A DNA stretch of 64,000 nt. Source: Blautia hansenii DSM 20583 (GTDB lineage: Bacteria > Bacillota > Clostridia > Lachnospirales > Lachnospiraceae). The stretch spans positions 1,318,001-1,382,000 of the forward strand of contig NZ_CP022413.2 of the NCBI RefSeq assembly GCF_002222595.2. Reading direction: 5' to 3'. The position numbers and the translations under genes were made by a program. Positions 1,993 to 43,411 of the stretch are shown here, one piece after another (within the stretch, counting starts at the first letter, position 1; each line of letters begins with the position of its first letter). The notes beneath the pieces are model-generated. The model saw only the letters and a program-made list of their open reading frames with translations. It was not told where the DNA came from and did not search any database.

Positions 1993-2262
1993 ATGATACA
2001 TCCATCTTACACAGAACTTATGGAGGTTATTAACGAAGGAGCCGAAATTGATGACGAACCATTAGTAACCAGCCGCTATTCTGTTGTGCTTGCTACAAGT
2101 AAAAGAGCGAGACAGTTAATTGCAGGAAAAGAGGCTATGGTTCCAAGCTCAGGTAAAAAACCGCTTTCCACAGCAGTAGAAGAAATCTACAAGGGAAAGG
2201 TTCACATTTTGCCGGAAGAAGCAGAAGTGGAAGAAGAAACAACAGAAGAAAACGAAATCTAA
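1993..2262 (+). CDS. rpoZ: DNA-directed RNA polymerase omega subunit
   Basis: An 89-residue omega subunit, which assists folding and assembly of beta-prime into RNA polymerase. The family core is visible: SYTELMEVI near the N-terminus, then LVTSRYSVVLATSKRARQLI, where the R-x5-A-x-K-R-A-R-Q helix contacts beta-prime. The acidic glutamate-rich tail is variable in Clostridia. It starts 2 nt after gmk with AAAGGAG upstream, and it closes the yicC operon. Confidence 0.93.
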   Translation: MIHPSYTELMEVINEGAEIDDEPLVTSRYSVVLATSKRARQLIAGKEAMVPSSGKKPLSTAVEEIYKGKVHILPEEAEVEEETTEENEI

Positions 2263-2270
2263 TAAAAAAT

Positions 2271-2315
2271 GAGGCTGTCGCATTAAACGGAAATTGCACT
2301 TAATGCAACAGCCTC
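2271..2315. terminator. Perfect-looking hairpin of the TGTCGCA family after rpoZ
   Basis: Arms 2271-2286 (GAGGCTGTCGCATTAA) and 2300-2315 pair over 16 positions with one mismatch, around a 13-nt loop. On the + strand there is no T-run after the stem. On the minus strand a T-rich tract follows (the A-rich run at 2261-2269), so it resembles a terminator in reverse orientation. It lies between rpoZ and rimO and may act as an RNA-processing or 3'-stabilising hairpin. It shares its core with hairpins elsewhere in the window. Confidence 0.55.
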
Positions 2316-2337
2316 GTGTTGCAGTTAAGGAGGATAC

Positions 2338-3678
2338 ATGAGAAAAGTATTGTTTATTTCTCTGGGATGTGACAAAAATCTGGCAGACTCCGAGGAAATG
2401 CTGGGTATGCTGGTGGAGAATGGTTATACACTTACCAATGATGAAACAGAAGCAGAAATCATTGTGGTGAATACCTGTGCCTTTATTCATGATGCAAAGG
2501 AAGAAAGTATCAACAGTATTCTGGAAATGGCACGTTACAAAACAGAGGGTGTGTTAAAAGTATTGCTGGTAACAGGCTGTCTTGCACAGAGATATAAGGA
2601 AGAAATTATTAAAGAAATTCCTGAGGTAGACGCAGTTCTGGGAACGACCAGCTTTGGAGATATTATCAAGGCATTGGATATAGTTTTTGAAGGAGAGCGT
2701 TATCTGGAATTTAAAGATATTAACGCCCTGACAGAAATCAGTAAAAAACGTGTTTTGACAACAGGCGGCTATTACGGATACCTCAAAATTGCAGAGGGCT
2801 GCGATAAGAGATGTACATACTGTATTATTCCCAAGCTTCGTGGAAACTATCGCAGTATTCCTATGGAACAACTGATTTCTCAAGCAGAATATCTGGCAGG
2901 GCAGGGAGTTCGGGAGCTGATTTTAGTGGCACAGGAAACTACCGTATACGGAAAAGATATTTACGGAAAAAAATGCCTTCACAAGCTTTTAAAAGAGCTT
3001 TGCAAAATTCCGGGTATTCAGTGGATACGAATTTTATACTGCTATCCGGAAGAGATTTATCCGGAGCTTATTCAGACCATGAAAGAAGAAAAGAAAATCT
3101 GTCATTATCTGGATTTGCCTATTCAGCATTGCAGCGATAAAATTTTAAAGAAAATGGGCAGAAGAACCACCAAGCAGGAGCTGATTGACATTGTTACGCT
3201 TTTGAGAAAAGAAATTCCTGATATTATACTGCGAACTACGTTAATCACAGGATTTCCCGGTGAAACAGAGGAAGACCATGAGGAATTGATGGAATTTATT
3301 GACACTATGGAATTTGACCGTCTGGGTGTCTTTACTTATTCAGCAGAGGAAGACACACCGGCTGCCAATATGCCAAATCAGATTGCAGAAGAAGTAAAAC
3401 AGGATAGGCAGGCAGAACTTATGGAGCTGCAGCAGGAGATTTCCATTGATAAGGGAAATGATAAAATCGGCACCTGCGTAGAGGTAATGATTGAAGGCAA
3501 AGTTGCGGACGAAAATGCTTATGTGGGAAGAACTTATGGAGATGCTCCAAACGTAGACGGATATATTTTTATCAACACAGACACAGAGCTGATGTCAGGA
3601 GATTTTGCCAGAGTTCATGTAACAGGGGCGCTGGAATATGATTTGATAGGAGAGTTGGAAAATGAATACACCGAATAA
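2338..3678 (+). CDS. rimO: Ribosomal protein S12 methylthiotransferase RimO
   Basis: A 446-residue radical-SAM methylthiotransferase that modifies Asp of ribosomal protein S12 (beta-methylthio-aspartate). The N-terminal UPF0004 domain has its three cluster cysteines near residues 11, 47 and 81. The radical-SAM motif CDKRCTYC has Cys155, Cys159 and Cys162. A C-terminal TRAM domain covers roughly the last 65 residues. The opening KVLFISLGCDKNLADSE distinguishes RimO from MiaB. A strong TAAGGAGG precedes ATG 2338. Its 3' end overlaps pgsA by 17 nt. Confidence 0.95.
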   Translation: MRKVLFISLGCDKNLADSEEMLGMLVENGYTLTNDETEAEIIVVNTCAFIHDAKEESINSILEMARYKTEGVLKVLLVTGCLAQRYKEEIIKEIPEVDAVLGTTSFGDIIKALDIVFEGERYLEFKDINALTEISKKRVLTTGGYYGYLKIAEGCDKRCTYCIIPKLRGNYRSIPMEQLISQAEYLAGQGVRELILVAQETTVYGKDIYGKKCLHKLLKELCKIPGIQWIRILYCYPEEIYPELIQTMKEEKKICHYLDLPIQHCSDKILKKMGRRTTKQELIDIVTLLRKEIPDIILRTTLITGFPGETEEDHEELMEFIDTMEFDRLGVFTYSAEEDTPAANMPNQIAEEVKQDRQAELMELQQEISIDKGNDKIGTCVEVMIEGKVADENAYVGRTYGDAPNVDGYIFINTDTELMSGDFARVHVTGALEYDLIGELENEYTE

Positions 3679-38381: not shown

Positions 38382-39736
38382 ATGGCGTTTTTAACCTTTA
38401 GGGGTGGCGTACATCCTTATGATGGAAAAGAACTGTCAAAAGAAAAGCCTGTACGGGAATATTTTCCCGGAAAAGAAATGGTTTATCCGCTGTCACAGCA
38501 TATCGGAGCTCCGGCGCAGCCTGTTGTGAAAAAGGGCGATTATGTTCTGGCGGGACAGAAAATCGCAGAGATGGGAGGCTTTGTTTCTGCACCTATTCAT
38601 TCTTCTGTATCGGGAGTGGTAAAGGAACTCAAGAAGGTACGGAATAATGTAGGAGCTATGGTGGATGCTATTGTTATAGAAAATGACGAAAAATATGAAA
38701 CCGTAGAATTTACACCGGCAGAGTCTTTAAAGGAACTTACTAAAGAAGAAATCATCGGCAGAATTAAAGATGCGGGCGTTGTCGGTATGGGAGGAGCGGG
38801 CTTTCCTACCCATGTAAAGCTTTCGCCAAAGGAGCCGGATAAAATTGAATATGTTCTGGTCAACGGAGCAGAATGTGAGCCTTATCTGACCTCTGATTAT
38901 CGCCGTATGTTAGAGCAGCCGGATTGGATTATCGCCGTATGTTAGAGCAGCCGGATTGGATTATCGGCGGATTAAAGTGTATTTTAAAGCTTTTTGACCA
39001 CGCAAAGGGTTATATCTGTATTGAAGACAACAAACCAGATTGTATTGAAAAGCTTACAGAGCTGGTAAAGGATGAACCAAGAATAGAAGTTGCTCCGTTA
39101 AAAACAAAATATCCGCAGGGAGCGGAGCGTTGCCTGATTGCGGCAGTAAGCGGCAGAGAAATCAATTCTTCCATGCTTCCGGCAGATGCGGGATGCGTAG
39201 TGGATAATATTGATACAGTATGTGCTGTTTATCGTGCAGTGATGAAAGGCGAACCGGTTATGGACCGTATTGTTACGGTTACAGGAGATGCGGTGGCAGA
39301 GCCGGGGAACTTTAAAGTCCGTCTGGGTACTTCCTTTGCAGAGCTTTTAGAAGAGGCAGGAGGCTTGAAGACTCCTGCAAAGAAAATCATTTCCGGCGGT
39401 CCTATGATGGGATTTGCCATGTTTGATTATCACGTTCCTGTTGTAAAAACATCTTCGGCTCTGCTTTGTATGTCAGAGGATGAGGTTTCGGAAAATGAAC
39501 CGACTGCTTGTATTAACTGTGGAAGATGTGTATCTGCCTGTCCGGCAAGACTGGTTCCTTCCAGACTTGCAACTTATTCGGAGCACGGCAGAGAGGACTT
39601 ATTTGTAAAATATAACGGTATGGAGTGTGTAGAATGTGGCTGCTGCAGCTTTGCCTGTCCGGCGAAAAGACCATTGACGCAGTCCATGCGTTCTATGAGA
39701 AAAATGGTTCTGGCAAATCGCAGAAAACCAAAGTAG
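38382..39736 (+). pseudogene. rnfC: rnfC, electron-transport complex subunit C, split by a 32-bp tandem duplication
   Basis: RnfC is the NADH/FMN- and [4Fe-4S]-binding subunit of the Rnf ferredoxin:NAD+ oxidoreductase ion pump. The first frame (38382-38945) encodes the N-terminal barrel and GGAGFPTHVK nucleotide site, then ends prematurely after DWII with A-V-C-stop. The second frame (from TTG 38924 or ATG 38939 to 39736) repeats DYRRMLEQPDWII and continues with the rest, including both cluster motifs CINCGRCVSACP and CVECGCCSFACP. Removing one 32-bp copy restores a single 440-codon gene, the normal length. Both halves are otherwise intact, so the lesion is recent, reversible or an assembly error. 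The ATG at 38939 overlaps the premature stop and could allow reinitiation. Confidence 0.9.
38895..38966 (+). repeat. Exact 32-bp tandem duplication in rnfC
   Basis: Copy 1 is 38895-38926 and copy 2 is 38927-38958, identical over 32 bp, followed by GATTATCG again (38959-38966). The ancestral single-copy sequence therefore had GATTATCG at both ends of a 32-bp unit, the classic substrate for slippage or short-homology recombination. 32 is not a multiple of three, hence the frameshift. Confidence 0.97.
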
Positions 39737-39748
39737 GAGGAGAAAATC

Positions 39749-40708
39749 ATGAGTGAATTATTACATGTTTCATCTTCCCCTCATGTAAGGTCGAAGGTGA
39801 GTACCAGCGGCATTATGCGCACAGTCTTTCTTGCGCTTATGCCTGCGGCATTATTCGGAATTTATAATTTTGGCTTAAATGCACTTCTGCTGATTTTAAT
39901 TTCCATTGCAGTGTGCATGGCAACAGAAGCCGGATATGAGAAAATTGTACATAAGAAGCTGACCATTCAGGATGGCAGTGCGGCTGTTACCGGTCTTTTG
40001 CTGGCGCTTAATCTGCCTCCAAATGCACCTTGGTGGATTGCCGTAATCGGCGGAGTTTTTGCTATTTTAGTGGTGAAACAGCTTTTCGGCGGACTGGGAC
40101 AGAATATTATGAACCCTGCGCTGGCAGCAAGATGTTTTCTTTTAATTTCTTTTACAGGAAGAATGACGGATTTCACAGTTCCAAGCGGTGGTTGGGGCAA
40201 CATTGCTGATACTGTATCAGGAGCAACTCCATTAGCGGCTTTAAAAGCAGGAGAGAGTGTAAAGTGGGTAGACTTATTCTTTGGAAACGTACAGGGAACC
40301 ATTGGCGAGACATCTGCTCTGGCAATTCTCATCGGAGCAGCAATTCTCTTAATCAACAGAATTATTGATTTTCGAATTCCATTGACTTATATCGGTACTT
40401 TTGCAGTATTTGTACTGTTATTTGGCGGTCATGGATTTGATGTGGAATATTTATTATGCCATTTATTTGGCGGCGGCTTAATGCTGGGAGCATGGTTTAT
40501 GGCAACAGATTATGTTACAACACCGATTACCAAGGCAGGACAGCTTGTCTATGGTGTATGTCTTGGTATCTTTACAGGGCTGTTCCGTATTTTCGGCGGC
40601 TCCGCAGAAGGCGTATCTTATGCAATTATATTCTGCAACCTGTTGATACCTTTAATTGAGCGTTATACAATGCCCCGTGCCTTCGGAAAAGGAGGTAAAA
40701 AAGCATGA
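39749..40708 (+). CDS. rnfD: Rnf complex subunit RnfD
   Basis: A 319-residue integral membrane subunit (about 9-10 helices) with covalently bound FMN at the threonine of SGAT (T160, in DTVSGATPLAALKAG). The NQR2/RnfD family pattern VSSSPHVRSKVST opens the protein and PLTYIGTFAVF sits in the middle. It starts 12 nt after rnfC with AGGAGG and overlaps rnfG by 4 nt. Electron path: ferredoxin to RnfB, through membrane flavins, to RnfC/NAD. Confidence 0.95.
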   Translation: MSELLHVSSSPHVRSKVSTSGIMRTVFLALMPAALFGIYNFGLNALLLILISIAVCMATEAGYEKIVHKKLTIQDGSAAVTGLLLALNLPPNAPWWIAVIGGVFAILVVKQLFGGLGQNIMNPALAARCFLLISFTGRMTDFTVPSGGWGNIADTVSGATPLAALKAGESVKWVDLFFGNVQGTIGETSALAILIGAAILLINRIIDFRIPLTYIGTFAVFVLLFGGHGFDVEYLLCHLFGGGLMLGAWFMATDYVTTPITKAGQLVYGVCLGIFTGLFRIFGGSAEGVSYAIIFCNLLIPLIERYTMPRAFGKGGKKA

Positions 40709-41316
40709 AAAAGAATACGATATTAAAAGATGCCCTTATTCTTATTGTGATTACTCTGATTGCAGGAGGGCTTTTAGGCTTGGTATATGAGGTTACGAAA
40801 AAGCCCATTGCCAATCAGCAGGAGAAAGCGAAACAGGAAGCATATAAGGCGGTATTTGAAGACGCAGACTCTTTTGAGGTGTGTGTGGAAGCAGAAGATG
40901 CAGATTTGGCAGAAGCTTTAAAAGAACAGGGCTTTGAAGCTCAGAAAATCAATGAAATTATGGAAGCAAAGGATGCTTCCGGAGAGACTTTAGGATATGC
41001 TGTCAATGTGACGACCTCAGAAGGCTATGGCGGCGATATCACCTTTTCTATGGGAGTTCAGCTTGACGGAACCTTAAACGGTATTTCTATTTTAAGTATC
41101 AGTGAAACGGCCGGACTTGGCATGAATGCCACAAAAGATGAATTTAAAAATCAGTTTTCTGATAAAAATGCAGAGGCTTTTGAAGTTACTAAAGCAGGTG
41201 CGTCTGATGAAAATGAAATCAATGCAATCAGCGGTGCAACCATTACTTCAAAGGCAGTAACCGGTGGGGTAAATGCCGGAATTTGTGCATTTAACTATGT
41301 AAAGGAGGGAGAATGA
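40705..41316 (+). CDS. rnfG: Rnf complex subunit RnfG
   Basis: A 203-residue membrane-anchored flavoprotein: one N-terminal transmembrane helix and an extracytoplasmic FMN-binding domain. The flavinylation motif is SGATIT (T179), preceded by GYGGDITFSMG. The flavin transferase ApbE needed for attachment is not encoded in this window. It overlaps rnfD by 4 nt and rnfE follows after 1 nt. Confidence 0.95.
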   Translation: MKKNTILKDALILIVITLIAGGLLGLVYEVTKKPIANQQEKAKQEAYKAVFEDADSFEVCVEAEDADLAEALKEQGFEAQKINEIMEAKDASGETLGYAVNVTTSEGYGGDITFSMGVQLDGTLNGISILSISETAGLGMNATKDEFKNQFSDKNAEAFEVTKAGASDENEINAISGATITSKAVTGGVNAGICAFNYVKEGE

Positions 41317-41317
41317 T

Positions 41318-42019
41318 ATGAAAAAGAATTCACCTGTTGAACGTCTTTATAACGGTATCATCAAAGAAAACCCGACTTTTGTGCTGGTACTTGGTATGTG
41401 TCCAACGCTGGCAGTTACCACAGCAGCCATAAACGGAATAGGAATGGGACTTACCACAACGGTGGTTCTGGCAATGTCCAACTTATTTATTTCTCTTTTG
41501 AGAAATATTATTCCGGACAAGGTACGTATGCCGGCATATATTGTGGTGGTAGCCTCCTTTGTAACCATTGTTCAGCTTTTGCTTCAGGGTTTTATTCCGG
41601 TTTTATACGATGCACTGGGAATTTATATTCCTCTTATCGTAGTAAACTGTATTATTTTAGGAAGAGCAGAGTCTTATGCGTCTAAGAACGGACCGGTTGC
41701 TTCTATTTTTGACGGAATAGGAATGGGACTTGGTTTTACACTTTCCATTACCATTCTTGCAGGCTTCCGTGAGCTTATTGGCGCAGGCACTTTGTTTGGT
41801 TTCCAGATTATGCCTGAGGCTTATGAGCCTGCTACTATTTTTATTTTAGCTCCGGGAGCTTTCTTTGTGCTTGCATTTTTGGCAGCGCTTCGTGCAAAAA
41901 TGCAGGAAAAGAAACCAAAGGAAGAGCAAAAGCCGGTACATTGTATGGAAGGCGGCTGTGCTTCCTGTGGCAATGAGTCTTGCAGCGGAAAATTTTACGA
42001 TAATACAGTGAAGAAATAA
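41318..42019 (+). CDS. rnfE: Rnf complex subunit RnfE with Cys-rich C-terminal tail
   Basis: A 233-residue membrane subunit with about six helices, NqrD/RnfE family (NPTFVLVLGMCPTLAVT, RMPAYIVVVASFVT, GRAESYASKNG). After the last helix it has a charged linker and a tail with four cysteines in the order C-x4-C-x2-C-x4-C (CMEGGCASCGNESC). The tail is not part of the minimal RnfE fold and could bind a metal or an Fe-S cluster. AGGAGGG precedes the ATG. Confidence 0.93.
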   Translation: MKKNSPVERLYNGIIKENPTFVLVLGMCPTLAVTTAAINGIGMGLTTTVVLAMSNLFISLLRNIIPDKVRMPAYIVVVASFVTIVQLLLQGFIPVLYDALGIYIPLIVVNCIILGRAESYASKNGPVASIFDGIGMGLGFTLSITILAGFRELIGAGTLFGFQIMPEAYEPATIFILAPGAFFVLAFLAALRAKMQEKKPKEEQKPVHCMEGGCASCGNESCSGKFYDNTVKK

Positions 42020-42034
42020 GGGGAGGGAGACGGA

Positions 42035-42610
42035 ATGAAAGAATTATTGATTATAGCTGTTGGAGCAGCGGTGGTAAATAATGTTGTTTTAAGTCAGTTC
42101 CTCGGTCTTTGTCCCTTCTTTGGAGTTTCTAAGAAAATAGAAACGGCAGCGGGCATGGGAGGAGCGGTTATCTTTGTTATTACCCTGTCTTCACTGGTAA
42201 CCAGCTTAATTTATCAGTTTGTTTTAAGTCCTTTGGATATGGGCTATATGCAGACGATAGTATTTATTTTAGTTATTGCGGCGTTAGTTCAGTTTGTAGA
42301 AATGTTTTTGAAAAAGGCAATGCCGGCGCTGTATCAGAGCCTTGGTGTTTACCTTCCTCTGATTACTACAAACTGTGCGGTTTTAGGTGTTGCAGTTATC
42401 AATGTGCAGAAATCTTATAATGTCTTGCAGGGAACAGTAAACGGATTTGCCACAGCAGTGGGCTTTACCATTTCTATTGTTTTAATGGCAGGGCTTCGTG
42501 AAAAAATGGAGTATAATGATGTTCCGAAATATTTTCAGGGATTTCCGATTGTGCTTTTGACTGCCGGATTGATGGCCATTGCTTTCTTTGGCTTTTCAGG
42601 AATTATTTAG
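42035..42610 (+). CDS. rnfA: Rnf complex subunit RnfA
   Basis: A 191-residue membrane subunit with six helices, paralogous to RnfE and related to NqrE. Family motifs are VVNNVVLSQFLGLCPFFGVSK at the N-terminus and LPLITTNCAVLGVAV in the middle, whose conserved cysteines hold the membrane [2Fe-2S] site shared with RnfE. GGGAGGGAG precedes the ATG; rnfB follows after 12 nt. Confidence 0.95.
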   Translation: MKELLIIAVGAAVVNNVVLSQFLGLCPFFGVSKKIETAAGMGGAVIFVITLSSLVTSLIYQFVLSPLDMGYMQTIVFILVIAALVQFVEMFLKKAMPALYQSLGVYLPLITTNCAVLGVAVINVQKSYNVLQGTVNGFATAVGFTISIVLMAGLREKMEYNDVPKYFQGFPIVLLTAGLMAIAFFGFSGII

Positions 42611-42622
42611 GAGGTGTGAACT

Positions 42623-43411
42623 ATGATAACAGGAATTATCATTGCGGCAGCTCTGGTAGGCGGCGTAGGGCTTTTCATCGGACTTTTTCTGGGAGTTGCC
42701 GGAAAGAAATTTGCAGTAGAAGTAGATGAAAGAGAAATACAGGTAAGGGAAGAGCTGCCCGGCAATAACTGCGGAGGTTGCGGATTTCCGGGATGTGACG
42801 GACTGGCAGCAGCCATTGCAAAGGGAGAAGCGCCTGTAAATGCCTGTCCCGTAGGTGGAGCGGCAGCAGCGGCAAAGATTGCAGCGATTATGGGGCAGGA
42901 AGCAGGAGAAAACATTCGTATGACAGCTTTTGTAAAATGTGCCGGTGATTGCGAAAAAGCCGGAAAAAGCTACGATTACACCGGTGTAAAGGACTGTAAA
43001 ATGGCTGCTCTTATGCAAAACGGCGGAGAAAAAGCCTGCTCCTACGGATGTCTTGGCTATGGCTCCTGTGTAAAAGCCTGTGGTTTTGATGCTATACATA
43101 TTGTCAACGGTATTGCCGTGGTAGACAAAGAGAAATGTAAGGCATGCGGAAAATGCGTGGCAGAATGTCCGAAGCATTTAATCGAATTAATTCCATATCA
43201 GCAGAAGCAGGCTGTGGCATGCAGCTCCAAGGAGAAAGGAAAGGCAGTCATGAGCGCCTGTGAAATCGGTTGTATCGGCTGCCGTAAATGTGTCAAAGAG
43301 TGTCCGAGCGAAGCCATTACAGTGGTAGACAATGTGGCACAGATTGATTATGAAAAATGTACAAATTGTGGAAAATGTAAAGAAACATGTCCACGCCACA
43401 TTATTCTGTAA
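42623..43411 (+). CDS. rnfB: Rnf complex subunit RnfB
   Basis: A 262-residue ferredoxin-accepting subunit: N-terminal membrane helix, then a four-Cys module NCGGCGFPGCDG...ACPVGG ([4Fe-4S]), and further ferredoxin-type clusters C-x2-C-x2-C-x3-C at GYGSCVKAC, CKACGKCVAECP, CIGCRKCVKECP and CTNCGKCKETCP. GGAGGTG precedes the ATG. Last gene of the Rnf operon, followed by a terminator. Confidence 0.95.
   Translation: MITGIIIAAALVGGVGLFIGLFLGVAGKKFAVEVDEREIQVREELPGNNCGGCGFPGCDGLAAAIAKGEAPVNACPVGGAAAAAKIAAIMGQEAGENIRMTAFVKCAGDCEKAGKSYDYTGVKDCKMAALMQNGGEKACSYGCLGYGSCVKACGFDAIHIVNGIAVVDKEKCKACGKCVAECPKHLIELIPYQQKQAVACSSKEKGKAVMSACEIGCIGCRKCVKECPSEAITVVDNVAQIDYEKCTNCGKCKETCPRHIIL

Follow-up and report, generated by a model that had tools for sequence, protein, structure and literature searches.

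A 32-bp tandem duplication, probably of slippage origin, splits rnfC in the rnf cluster of a Blautia genome

The rnfC gene of the window (i.e. the whole 64,000-nucleotide stretch analysed, G000:C1:1318001-1382000 of a 3,065,949-base single-contig genome whose nearest named relatives are Blautia) is split by an exact tandem duplication of 32 bp. With a probability of about three in four, this duplication arose spontaneously by slippage in the lineage or culture that was sequenced; it would inactivate Rnf and could in principle revert. Such a change is most likely an ordinary type of mutation and not an evolved switch. The split gene is the first gene of an rnfCDGEAB cluster with the following features.

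38382..38945, + strand: 5' part of rnfC (187 aa; RnfC_N and first part of the FMN-binding Complex1_51K domain)
38895..38926, + strand: 32-bp unit, first copy
38927..38958, + strand: 32-bp unit, second identical copy
38959..38966, + strand: downstream 8-bp repeat, third GATTATCG
38943..38945, + strand: premature stop TAG from the frameshift
38924..39736, + strand: 3' part of rnfC (270 aa; remainder of the FMN-binding domain, SLBB, 4Fe-4S dicluster region)
39749..40708, + strand: rnfD, uninterrupted
40705..41316, + strand: rnfG, uninterrupted
41318..42019, + strand: rnfE, uninterrupted
42035..42610, + strand: rnfA, uninterrupted
42623..43411, + strand: rnfB, uninterrupted

The two identical copies were read directly in the sequence, with the third occurrence of GATTATCG lying immediately after the second copy. 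Tandem Repeats Finder reported the same site (38895-38966, period 32, 2.2 copies, 100% matches, score 144), bearing out the duplication described by an earlier sequence-only reading. The exact self-match at offset 32 extended over 40 bases; when the window was shuffled 20 times under a first-order Markov model, the longest self-match at offsets of 15-199 reached 11-15 bases. Because 32 is not divisible by three, the reading frame shifts and the premature TAG closes the 5' ORF after 187 aa, the last three of which are out of frame; the predicted end at about 187 residues was thus correct. The 3' ORF has a TTG start at 38924 and an in-frame ATG at 38939. This ATG (38939-38941) had been said to overlap the stop, but the two triplets are one base apart and share no base, the overlap being between the two ORFs. 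Against the RnfC profile TIGR01945, the 5' ORF matched positions 2-184 with 208.5 bits, below the cut-off of 245.95, and the 3' ORF matched positions 172-431 with 307.8 bits and was the sole half above the cut-off. No continuous ORF therefore covered the whole profile above the cut-off, and the break fell within the FMN-binding domain at position 58 of 150 of the Complex1_51K profile. The other five subunits (i.e. RnfD, G, E, A and B) gave family matches over nearly their whole length, in agreement with the earlier claim that they are intact.

An exact direct copy with microhomology at the unit boundary is the pattern of a slippage-type intragenic duplication. In the proposed sequence of events, the rnfC of the parent sequence would have carried two chance 8-bp repeats (GATTATCG) at a distance of 32 bp, and the replicating strand would have slipped between them, producing a spontaneous tandem duplication. 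The resulting shift of frame would stop RnfC inside the FMN-binding domain. A unit ending at an 8-bp repeat is the product expected of slippage between short repeats and so supports the origin put forward by the sequence-only reading. As the two tandem copies are perfect, one of them could be lost again, which would regenerate an intact rnfC. A 464-kb sample (i.e. the window and 20 further stretches, about 15% of the genome) contained 1876 pairs of direct repeats of 8 bp or more spaced 10-100 bp apart, 14 of them at a distance of 32; the total extrapolates to about 12,400 genome-wide. The window had 274 such pairs against 129 in its Markov shuffles, a twofold excess. Such pairs are common, so the 8-bp repeat at the rnfC site is nothing special. 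A DNA hairpin aiding slippage was rejected, as the single-strand fold had a z of 0.85 and 163 of 200 shuffles folded at least as well.

The state of the locus was examined in relatives. Among 19 same-genus genomes searched, all 18 with a full-length rnfC (G002 giving a short partial match only) contained one copy of the unit and 440 codons, matching the normal gene length that had been predicted and indicating that the duplication is absent from close relatives. Of 109 relative loci in a wider set, 107 had 90% or more of RnfC in a single ORF and two were cut by contig ends; hence, the only exceptions to a one-ORF layout among the 110 rnfC loci fetched in all were these two and the window's own genome. 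The 107 uncut loci were drawn from two overlapping sets (e.g. G013 and L031 have contigs of the same length, 1,196,008), one set being the best 80 of 591, and so are neither independent nor complete. One contig (L034), titled Blautia hansenii MSK.15.26, encoded an RnfC whose C-terminal half was 89% identical to that of the window.

These comparisons bear on the proposal that RnfC is made as two half-proteins, the second arising from re-initiation at the ATG at 38939 or the TTG at 38924. Coupled translation is conceivable with an ATG one base ahead of the stop, and the C-terminal part alone exceeds the TIGR01945 cut-off. The two-protein layout raised by the sequence-only reading was, however, absent from all 107 uncut relative loci, on which ground a conserved two-gene rnfC was rejected. 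The break also lies inside the FMN-binding domain and within a predicted helix (residues 180-191) of an AlphaFold2 model of a relative's RnfC, a poor model with a mean pLDDT of 48.9, too low for a fold search. Inspection by eye showed no strong Shine-Dalgarno sequence ahead of the internal starts. Production of two functional halves is accordingly considered very unlikely.

Database proteins were a second source of evidence on copy state. Three protein searches gave 3912, 7989 and 7986 matches, and the best 120 of each were merged into 260 distinct proteins. By motif pattern, 196 of these were in the one-copy form, three differed in other ways and 61 were unreadable; the protein signature of the duplication was seen in none of the 260. 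The database is clustered at 90%, such that 187-aa forms may sit hidden inside longer clusters and the protein counts give no allele frequency; for the same reason, the lack of a separate cluster of a 187-aa protein among the 120 best of 3912 matches is uninformative. Several proteins were nearly identical to the RnfC of the window. P0001, in the one-copy form, was identical over the first 278 of 284 residues, and P0130, also in the one-copy form, had a single difference (Y27C) in the first 429 of 444 residues. Two partial proteins, P0015 and P0026, were identical at 99.3% of 152 and 98.5% of 136 residues of the N-terminal half, respectively. P0001, P0015 and P0026 carry no source, P0130 is labelled 'ena' and the strain is not stated for any of the four; from their identity, we infer that they derive from the same species as the window. 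P0241 corresponds to the 270-aa ORF of the window itself. The one-copy state was seen in database proteins and the two-copy state in the window's genome alone, with the proviso that clustering at 90% may hide others.

A few further proteins were unusual. P0242 matched the C-terminal half over 269 residues with a clearly different N-terminal half and is perhaps a chimaera. A scan detected an in-frame internal repeat with a period of 47 aa in the N-terminal part of the RnfC of P0129, and a shorter, imperfect in-frame N-terminal repeat was seen by eye in P0205; both are possibly chimaeric assemblies. P0011, a 186-aa RnfC of a related species encoded on a 763-base contig, changes frame just after CEPYLTSD, which by eye fits a one-base deletion and not a duplication, and may reflect an error or an independent lesion.

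Substitution patterns were used to date the lesion. Relative to the nearest relative, dN/dS was 0.031 for the N-terminal half and 0.022 for the C-terminal half, indicating strong purifying selection on both. Ratios against six further relatives ranged from 0.033 to 0.089, and are rough since dS exceeded 1 in several. Low ratios in both halves imply that constraint held until recently. One copy in relatives, near-identical one-copy proteins and purifying selection together indicate that the rnfC duplication is recent, in line with the suggestion from the sequence that the defect is new or reversible; the layout of the repeat would make reversal possible.

The sequence-only reading had also offered a maintained phase-variable switch, in which gain and loss of a 32-bp copy would set Rnf off and on within a population. 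The layout is mechanically able to toggle, the one-copy state exists in near-identical proteins and, in relative L015, 7 bases match at offset 32 at another point close by. Spontaneous duplications within capsule genes of pneumococci have moreover been called reversible or a cause of phase variation (excerpts of PMC4243769 and PMC2995930). Against such a switch, the 8-bp repeat was present at both ends of the unit in none of the 18 same-genus relatives at the DNA level, the two positions agreeing at 2 to 6 of 8 bases, so that the unstable repeat of a contingency locus is not kept in relatives. Comparable repeat pairs are also abundant, as shown by the counts in the 464-kb sample, and the duplication signature was absent from the 260 best-matching proteins (61 unreadable). 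With a flanking repeat that is not conserved and pairs of this kind being common, a maintained switch is not supported and is regarded as very unlikely. Equally unlikely is the related idea that gut Blautia populations mix Rnf-positive and Rnf-negative cells through this copy-number toggle, each suiting different substrates.

The main alternative to slippage in cells is an assembly or consensus error, whereby the cells are one-copy and the second copy was introduced by assembly or polishing. In its favour, the near-identical proteins and every relative with a full-length match are one-copy, and a published comparison of two M. tuberculosis Erdman assemblies listed 28 structural differences, half of them judged probable mistakes in the older one (excerpt of PMC12817950). 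Two controls argue against this explanation. In a scan of periods from 9 to 600 across the 464 kb, the rnfC site was the sole exact tandem repeat with a period of >12 bp, and a duplication-rich genome or assembly was therefore rejected within the sample. In a gene-by-gene control against the nearest relative, 65 of 76 matched relative ORFs (at least 100 aa) were covered to 90% or more by one window ORF. The other 11 comprised eight matching window ORFs that lie antisense under a larger ORF, one start-site difference, rnfC and one ambiguous short ORF (window 2149-2490, minus strand); with the comparison turned round, 68 of 78 window ORFs were covered. Thus, rnfC was the only clearly split gene among the 76. 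A sole tandem repeat and a sole clearly split gene indicate that assembly errors are not rife, and a unit ending at the 8-bp repeat is what slippage in cells leaves. An error is judged unlikely, but likelier than a switch or two half-proteins. A megablast search of a plasmid collection with a 501-base query gave no match.

Searches of the rest of the genome found no further canonical rnfA, rnfE or rnfB: the sole two PF02508 matches (i.e. rnfE and rnfA) and the sole TIGR01944 match above its cut-off (i.e. rnfB) are those of the window's operon, leading to rejection of a second complete rnf operon as a backup. With no second set of these genes, the sequenced lineage probably lacks a functional Rnf pump. 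An uninterrupted RnfC paralogue is encoded at G000:C1:943469-944818 (449 aa, 414 bits to TIGR01945) and shares 42% identity with RnfC from relative L031. This paralogue belongs to a partial Rnf-like cluster at G000:C1:943469-947862 (L161:8469-12862), separate from the window's operon, that also encodes an RnfD-like protein, a 432-aa protein with two FMN-binding stretches (best NCBIfam match PplA, below its cut-off) and a 255-aa protein without a Pfam match. The partial cluster contains no canonical RnfA, E or B, and an aromatic amino acid lyase and a BCCT transporter are encoded upstream of it.

Loss of Rnf would have to be tolerated in culture. In Clostridium ljungdahlii, a strain deleted for rnfCDGEAB grew heterotrophically and not autotrophically (excerpt of PMC9124969), and by analogy loss of Rnf is plausible in a sugar-fed culture. 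If the duplication is real, physiological studies and metabolic models that rely on this reference may mistakenly credit the organism with a functional Rnf pump; the strain would then be a naturally occurring rnfC null from which revertants might be obtained. In the event of a consensus error, it is the reference that has to be corrected. Either way, rnfC in the reference genome deserves a flag.

In the literature library searched, no paper joined 'tandem duplication' with 'rnfC'. The cluster itself resembles the rnfCDGEAB operon of C. ljungdahlii, as described in the same excerpt, in its C-D-G-E-A-B order and in having all six families present, and differs in that rnfC is split by the duplication. 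Changes in tandem-repeat copy number are known from M. tuberculosis Erdman, where comparison of assemblies of one strain detected changes that were in part consistent with in vitro evolution and in part likely assembly errors. According to that source (PMC12817950, in excerpt), the Erdman repeats lie in promoters and vary within isogenic populations and across lineages, whereas the rnfC repeat is frameshifting, lies in coding sequence and has been seen once. The closest published case is that of reversible duplications in pneumococcal capsule genes. Spontaneous sequence duplications were described in cap3A, cap8E and tts of Streptococcus pneumoniae (Waite et al. 2001, 2003, as cited in excerpts of PMC4243769, PMC2995930 and PMC4022640), where they are reported as reversible (PMC4243769) and as causing phase variation (PMC2995930), and a duplication in serotype 8 was reported in continuous culture (PMC4022640). 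The rnfC duplication differs in affecting an energy-conserving pump subunit of a gut anaerobe and in being a single case known from sequence alone; it is alike in lying within an ORF whose function is abolished in the capsule genes, as described in these excerpts, and would be abolished here.
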